From Chloroflexota bacterium (GTDB lineage Bacteria; Chloroflexota; Anaerolineae; Anaerolineales; Villigracilaceae), in assembly GCA_016195815.1 (NCBI GenBank), contig JACPYX010000018.1, forward strand, positions 186,001 through 250,000: 64,000 nt of DNA. Direction: 5' to 3'. A model generated the notes under the pieces. It saw only the letters and a list, made by a program, of their open reading frames with translations. It did not search any database and was not told where the DNA came from. Positions 57,085 through 58,711 of this stretch are shown here, piece after piece. How positions within the stretch are numbered: the first letter of the stretch is position 1; each line of letters starts with the position of its first letter. The position numbers and the translations under genes were made by a program.

Positions 57085-57357
57085 CTACTCGCTCTTTTCG
57101 CTGGGTTTGGCTGACGGCTTGCTCTCGGACTTGCTTTCTTCTTTTTTGCCCGATTTTTTGGAAACCTCACCGGAAGGAGACTTGTGATCTGTAGCGTAAA
57201 ACCCCGAGCCTTTGAAGATGATCTTGGTGGGCGTGATGACTTTCTTGAGGGTTTTCTTGCGGCATTCGGGGCAGGTCTTCAAAGAAGCGTCGGTGAATGA
57301 TTGCTGGCGTTCAAATTGCACACCGCAGTTTTCACAACGATAAGTATAGATTGGCAT
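57085..57357 (-). CDS. FmdB-family zinc-ribbon protein
   Basis: 90 residues. MPIYTYRCENCGVQFERQQS then CPECRKKTLKKVI is the FmdB zinc ribbon (two CxxC). The C-terminal 35 residues are Lys/Ser/Glu-rich and low in complexity. It is proposed as a regulatory or nucleic-acid-binding protein; function unproven. Confidence 0.92.
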   Translation of the reverse strand: MPIYTYRCENCGVQFERQQSFTDASLKTCPECRKKTLKKVITPTKIIFKGSGFYATDHKSPSGEVSKKSGKKEESKSESKPSAKPSEKSE

Positions 57358-57478
57358 GGACTTTTTCCTTCTTTCTTAACAGCGTAGTGGATTATAGCGC
57401 GGCTGTTACCACGTGCATAGCCTTAGACGCCGCATGTTATAATTTTCTAACGTTTTGCAAGTTGACCAGGAGGCTGAC

Positions 57479-57721
57479 ATGCTAAAAATCGAGATCGTTT
57501 ACTGCGCGGTCTGACACTACACCGAACGGGCCGTGAGCCTGGCAAATGACCTGCTCAAGGAATTTGAGCATATGATCGAGTCGTTGGCGCTCATTCCCTC
57601 GGACGGCGGCCGCTTCGAGGTCAGCGTGAACGGGAAGTTGATTTATTCAAAACTCGAGACCAAACGTCACGCCGCAGCAGGTGAAGTTGTGGGTCTGGTT
57701 AATAAAATGGTTGAAGGATAA
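57479..57721 (+). CDS. SelW-like selenoprotein (Rdx family, Cys-x-x-Sec)
   Basis: 80 residues if the TGA at 57512-57514 is read as selenocysteine: MLKIEIVYCAV-U-HYTERA, giving Cys9-Ala-Val-Sec12, the redox motif of selenoprotein W. The rest fits SelW closely, including GRFEVSVNGKLIYSKLETKR. AGGAGG five bases before the ATG is an excellent ribosome site for this start, and no other lesion exists. A hairpin follows the UGA by about 13 bases (CGGGC with GCCTG, loop CGTGA), a plausible bacterial SECIS. Annotation programs will call only the 62 residues from 57533, which lack the active site. trpS starts four bases after the stop. Confidence 0.9.
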
Positions 57722-57724
57722 AGA

Positions 57725-58711
57725 ATGGCAAAAAAGGGACGTGTTTTTTCCGGCGCCCGTCCAACGGGACGCCAACATCTCGGCAATTATCTCGGCGCGA
57801 TCCAAAATTATGTGGCTTTGCAGGACGACTACGAGTGTGTTTACTGTATCGTGGATATTCACGCATTGACCACTGTGGAGGATACGCTCGACCTCAAGCA
57901 AAATACATACGAGATGGCGCTCGACTGGCTGGCGGCTGGCATCCGCCCGCAAGAGACCATCATGTTCATTCAGTCGCACGTCCCCGAAGTGATGGAATTG
58001 CACACGCTTCTGTCCATGGTCACTCCGCTTGGCAAATTGACCGACCTGCCGACTTTCAAGGAAAAAATCCGGCAACAGCCCGACAATGTGAACTATGGCC
58101 TGGTCGGCTATCCCGTTTTGATGACGGCCGATATTGTGCTTTATAAAACGGATGTTGTGCCGGTCGGCATTGACCAGGCTCCGCACATCGAGTTTGCGCG
58201 CGAGATCGTGCGTTCTTTCAATTATCGTTATAAGACCAATGCGTTGGTCGAACCGCAGATGAAGAACACCAAGATTCTCAAGGTGTTGGGCATTGACGGC
58301 AAAGAGAAGATGGGCAAGAGTCTCAACAATCACATTGAGTTGGCGGCCACGCCCGAAGAAACCAAAACGCGTGTCCTGCAAATGGTCACCGACCCGGCGC
58401 GCATCAAGCGTACAGATCCGGGCAACCCGGATGTGTGCAATGTCTTCACCATGCACAAGATTTTTTCGCCGCAGGATGAAGTGGACATGATCAACGTCGA
58501 GTGCCGCCGCGCTGGGATCGGTTGCGTGGATTGCAAAACGCGCTTCGCCGCGAATCTAAACAAGAACCTTGAACCTTTCCGCGCCAAGCGCGCCGAACTC
58601 GATGCCAAGCCGGATGTTGTCCAGGACATTCTGAACGATGGCGCTAAACGCGCCCGCACCATTGCCCAAAAGACGATGACCGAAGTCCGTGAGGCCATTC
58701 AACTTCCATAG
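57725..58711 (+). CDS. trpS: tryptophanyl-tRNA synthetase
   Basis: 328 residues, class I. The HIGH-type motif is [16 protein letters not shown] and the KMSKS-type motif is [12 protein letters not shown]. Cys residues in GCVDCKTRF near the C-terminus. AAAGAATGG start, four bases after the SelW-like gene, so both are probably on one transcript. Confidence 0.97.

Follow-up and report, generated by a model that had tools for sequence, protein, structure and literature searches.

Does the TGA triplet that interrupts an otherwise open frame at positions 57479-57721 of the window (the whole stretch of 64,000 nucleotides analysed here, from a genome of the Anaerolineales) end a truncated product, or does it specify selenocysteine (Sec) in a protein of the SelW type? 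The frame lies on the plus strand. It starts with the ATG at 57479-57481, which is separated by a 5-nt spacer from the Shine-Dalgarno sequence AGGAGG (57468-57473), contains a single in-frame TGA as codon 12 (57512-57514) and continues to the TAA stop at 57719-57721. This arrangement, described in an earlier note on the same DNA, is confirmed by direct reading of the sequence. An in-frame TTG at 57455 could extend the frame upstream; the ATG is taken as the start because it has a ribosome site and aligns with the starts of relatives. With UGA read as Sec, the product of the gene, selW, is a protein of 80 residues (MLKIEIVYCAVUHYTERAVSLANDLLKEFEHMIESLALIPSDGGRFEVSVNGKLIYSKLETKRHAAAGEVVGLVNKMVEG) carrying the motif Cys9-Ala-Val-Sec12. 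Under the standard code, the locus yields merely a peptide of 11 residues and an ORF of 62 residues from the GTG at 57533.

The product belongs to the SelW/Rdx family. It matches the Pfam Rdx profile PF10262 with an E-value of 9.4e-20 and 71 bits (cut-off 22.6 bits) and TIGR02174 (CXXU_selWTH) with 59.9 bits (cut-off 34.2), while its score of 77.9 against NF041051, a narrower Campylobacter equivalog, is under the cut-off of 88. In the PDB, the proteins matched by sequence are of the SelW type. In 30 aligned relatives, Cys9 and position 12 (Cys or UGA) are invariant. The AlphaFold2 model, built from 30 aligned relatives and with a pLDDT of 96.9, places the CxxU motif between strand 1 (residues 2-9) and helix 1. 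Foldseek ranks highest the crystal structures of three Cys-type SelW relatives, 2fa8 (Agrobacterium), 2obk (Pseudomonas) and 2p0g (Vibrio cholerae), which share the fold (TM about 0.9) and are alike in sequence over residues 3-59; in 2p0g and 2fa8, the two alignments inspected, Cys occupies the position of Sec. Further bacterial relatives, mouse SelW and MIEN1 follow at lower ranks, and then thioredoxins. Mouse selenoprotein W (2npb), a Sec protein of the same family, is a weaker fold match (TMq 0.66). Profiles and predicted fold agree with the earlier claim that the product resembles selenoprotein W around CxxU, and fold and motif together suggest a thioredoxin-like oxidoreductase with a redox function.

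The same note had held that the organism should possess the Sec machinery, and had named a lack of selB or selC (tRNA-Sec) as an observation that would speak against recoding; both occur in the genome of the window, a draft of 3.16 Mb in 23 contigs that is 97.9% complete. The tRNA-Sec scores 69.8 bits (gathering score 47) and is called SeC with anticodon TCA by ARAGORN, and selA (538 bits), selB (352 bits) and selD (349 bits) are all over their curated cut-offs. These genes are scattered, on separate contigs or far from one another. The selD match (C5:18226-19158, minus strand) contains an in-frame TGA within CAGUASK, and the usual Sec site of SelD is UxxK (PMC13188914); selenophosphate synthetase is thus probably itself a selenoprotein in this genome. 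Across the 152 genomes of the taxonomic family, selB is present in 139 (86 of the 88 of good quality) and tRNA-Sec in 130 (84 of 88). Some SelW-positive genomes have no selB or tRNA-Sec match; they are mostly incomplete assemblies.

Other in-frame TGA codons are found in the genome of the window. Two AhpC/TSA-type (Prx-like) proteins carry one in a UxxC motif, FNUMQC at C22:117953-118324 and FLUPYC at C3:126806-127177, and both are probably selenoproteins by this signature. For Sec of the formate dehydrogenase type, no TGA lies within the PF00384 matches (the Sec site may lie outside this domain), and there is none in the AhpD-like CMD proteins. Scanning the window for further frames with a read-through UGA returned 17, some of them overlapping, none compelling by eye.

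Eukaryotic SECIS elements are located in the 3′-UTR, as in mouse SelW, whereas the bacterial element considered here lies inside the coding frame. It is a SECIS-type hairpin, CGGGC-CGUGA-GCCUG (57527-57541, plus strand), with a 5-bp stem and a 5-nt CGUGA loop that has G at its second position and begins 17 nt past the UGA. The bacterial SECIS model comprises an apical loop of 3-9 nt, a stem of 4-16 bp, a distance of 16-37 nt from the UGA, a G within the first two loop positions and an MFE of -7.5 kcal/mol or lower (PMC13188914). In loop size, stem length, loop G and distance the hairpin has this layout, and its MFE is -5.5 kcal/mol alone and -7.1 in 31 nt with flanks, both short of the -7.5 of the model, a value that may refer to another stretch. 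As a single sequence it is unremarkable: an equally stable candidate follows 7.7% of all plus-strand TGAs in the window, and in single-sequence folding longer stretches around it favour other structures. What counts is the comparison across species.

Among 113 sequences, a 6-pair version of the hairpin has 95.1% of its cells paired versus 91.8 (sd 0.4) in shuffles, and both sides of a pair have changed in 32 cells versus 10.1 in shuffles (0 of 500 shuffles), while in shifted registers pairing reaches 50% at most. Compensatory changes affect two pairs. The clearest joins the third base of Arg17 to the first base of Leu21 (G-C 91, A-U 12, G-U 2, other 8), and this covariation is not due to protein constraint, since CGG to CGA and CTG to TTG are both synonymous. 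When placed on the trpS tree, the two bases change together in four to six of seven independent pairs and never oppositely (median p 0.06), a result that is not significant alone because the independent pairs are too few; control site pairs agree more weakly or not at all. RNAalifold alone recovers just four of the hairpin pairs, with a small covariation term. Codon usage over the hairpin is frozen from codon 17 to codon 21: CGG at codon 17 (84% versus 12% for Arg elsewhere in the gene), GCC for Ala at codon 18 (98% versus 23%), GTG at codon 19 (89% versus 33% for the same amino acid elsewhere), AGC at codon 20 (82% versus 12%, likewise) and CTG at codon 21 (86% versus 27% for Leu). Pair conservation, compensatory changes, frozen codons and the tree-aware check all point to a constraint acting at the RNA level, exactly where a SECIS element would be expected.

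UGA readthrough occurs in other bacteria, and the codon might accordingly specify Trp or Cys instead of Sec, either by near-cognate decoding or in a reassigned code. Such a reading is very improbable for selW, where the UGA occupies the known Sec site of the family in a CxxU motif, is followed by the SECIS-like constraint and stands in a genome encoding the full Sec pathway. A reassigned code is rejected, since TGA is a normal stop in the window, where it terminates 12 of 40 long ORFs.

Is the TGA a nonsense mutation or a misread TGC or TGT, so that selW would be a pseudogene or really a Cys form? It is alone in its frame, one base away from a Cys codon, and it stands where 2p0g and 2fa8 have Cys. 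But the same triplet recurs at codon 12 in 130 of 131 related loci (about a dozen of which repeat a genome), in separately assembled genomes whose frames are open on both sides of the UGA and whose proteins are about 55-87% identical to SelW of the window. The only other codon, TGC (Cys), belongs to a divergent second selW copy with 38% identity (C28:10154-10375), whose genome carries the UGA form as well. At the level of genomes, selW occurs in 125 of the 152 of the family and the match contains the UGA in 124 of these 125, the remaining one being a fragment of residues 21-63 that misses the site. This conservation of the TGA rejects a pseudogene or a sequencing error, and with the Sec machinery encoded alongside, such an origin is extremely improbable. 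Nor is the frame there by chance, given the Rdx match, the UGA-bearing relatives in 124 family genomes and the near-invariance of the TGA among the loci. The comparison of homologues proposed in the earlier note therefore comes out for Sec, not Cys, within the family, and the Sec form of SelW proves to be retained over an entire Chloroflexota family.

Beyond the family, among the matches listed for 400 Chloroflexota genomes, UGA-form selW is dominant near the window and Cys forms lie further off. Outside the family and again among the matches listed, selB is found in 85 of 86 UGA-form genomes versus 28 of 34 Cys-only genomes (Fisher p 0.002), in a phylum-wide tally counted by hand in which the UGA form was judged from stops inside the matches.

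Extremely improbable, too, is a UGA acting as a true stop behind an 11-residue leader peptide, with a separate 62-residue protein from GTG 57533 and a hairpin regulating a downstream operon that includes trpS: this ORF exists and trpS is directly downstream, but the segment ahead of the UGA, with strand 1 and Cys9, shows conservation at the protein level and is integral to the fold, the Sec machinery is present, and the GTG falls within the loop of the hairpin and lacks a ribosome site, two reasons for rejecting a separate ORF.

The gene, its family, its predicted fold, the conservation of the UGA, the RNA-level constraint and the machinery genes are all read from the sequence, and in their light selW is almost certainly a genuine selenoprotein gene of the SelW/Rdx family whose UGA would be decoded as Sec by canonical bacterial Sec insertion. 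The recoding that the earlier note had surmised gains its support from the machinery, the conserved UGA and the conserved SECIS-type hairpin. In the mechanism that we infer, ribosomes would start at the ATG behind AGGAGG, and at codon 12 the UGA, together with the CGUGA-loop hairpin downstream, would recruit SelB with Sec-tRNA-Sec, itself made by SelA using selenophosphate from SelD. Sec would then be inserted and translation would continue to the UAA. The Cys9-Ala-Val-Sec12 segment would form the redox centre, most likely as a selenenylsulfide in thiol redox chemistry.

The gene for tryptophanyl-tRNA synthetase, trpS (57725-58711, plus strand), follows 3 nt after selW. This adjacency is conserved, trpS starting within the same short distance of selW in 107 of the 111 related loci in which it was found, and the two genes are probably co-transcribed. 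On the other side, an FmdB-type zinc-ribbon gene (57085-57357, minus strand) is divergent and upstream of selW, and it is found in many related loci too. It is conceivable, if very unlikely, that selW and trpS form a regulatory unit in which the efficiency of UGA decoding in selW, reflecting Sec supply, determines how strongly trpS is translated, so that selenium status would tune the supply of tryptophanyl-tRNA; the effect could pass through translational coupling or through premature termination at codon 12.

SelW-like proteins with CxxU are listed among the selenoprotein families of prokaryotes (PMC13188914), had 10 members in a 2006 survey (PMC1794560) and outnumbered every other selenoprotein family in the marine GOS survey (PMC2398784). 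Compared with the known bacterial members (PF10262/TIGR02174), the protein described here has the same family, length and CxxU motif, in which Sec occupies the second redox position, and a predicted SECIS right after the UGA; it differs only in its host lineage (Anaerolineales, Chloroflexota) and in the trpS neighbourhood. Sec formate dehydrogenases and selenocysteine-specific factors have been noted in single-cell genomes of Anaerolineales (PMC4959059), and the literature searched contained no paper on SelW in Chloroflexota or Anaerolineales. In Epsilonproteobacteria, SelW genes were 'completely missed' by genome annotation (PMC4607533). The earlier suggestion that automated annotation hides the gene fits this precedent and holds as a possibility only: annotation could still miss it.

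Sec decoding at a UGA, as in SelW, is already a well-known system, and the general picture is unchanged by selW; what is added is its family-wide retention in Chloroflexota. The locus is a reminder that the gene would be cut short or passed over if such genomes were read in the standard way, and its relatives provide a large added set of natural sequences for the study of SECIS elements and SelW. For this family of Anaerolineales, known mainly from uncultured genomes, the comparison shows a Sec-form SelW in most members and the Cys form almost never.
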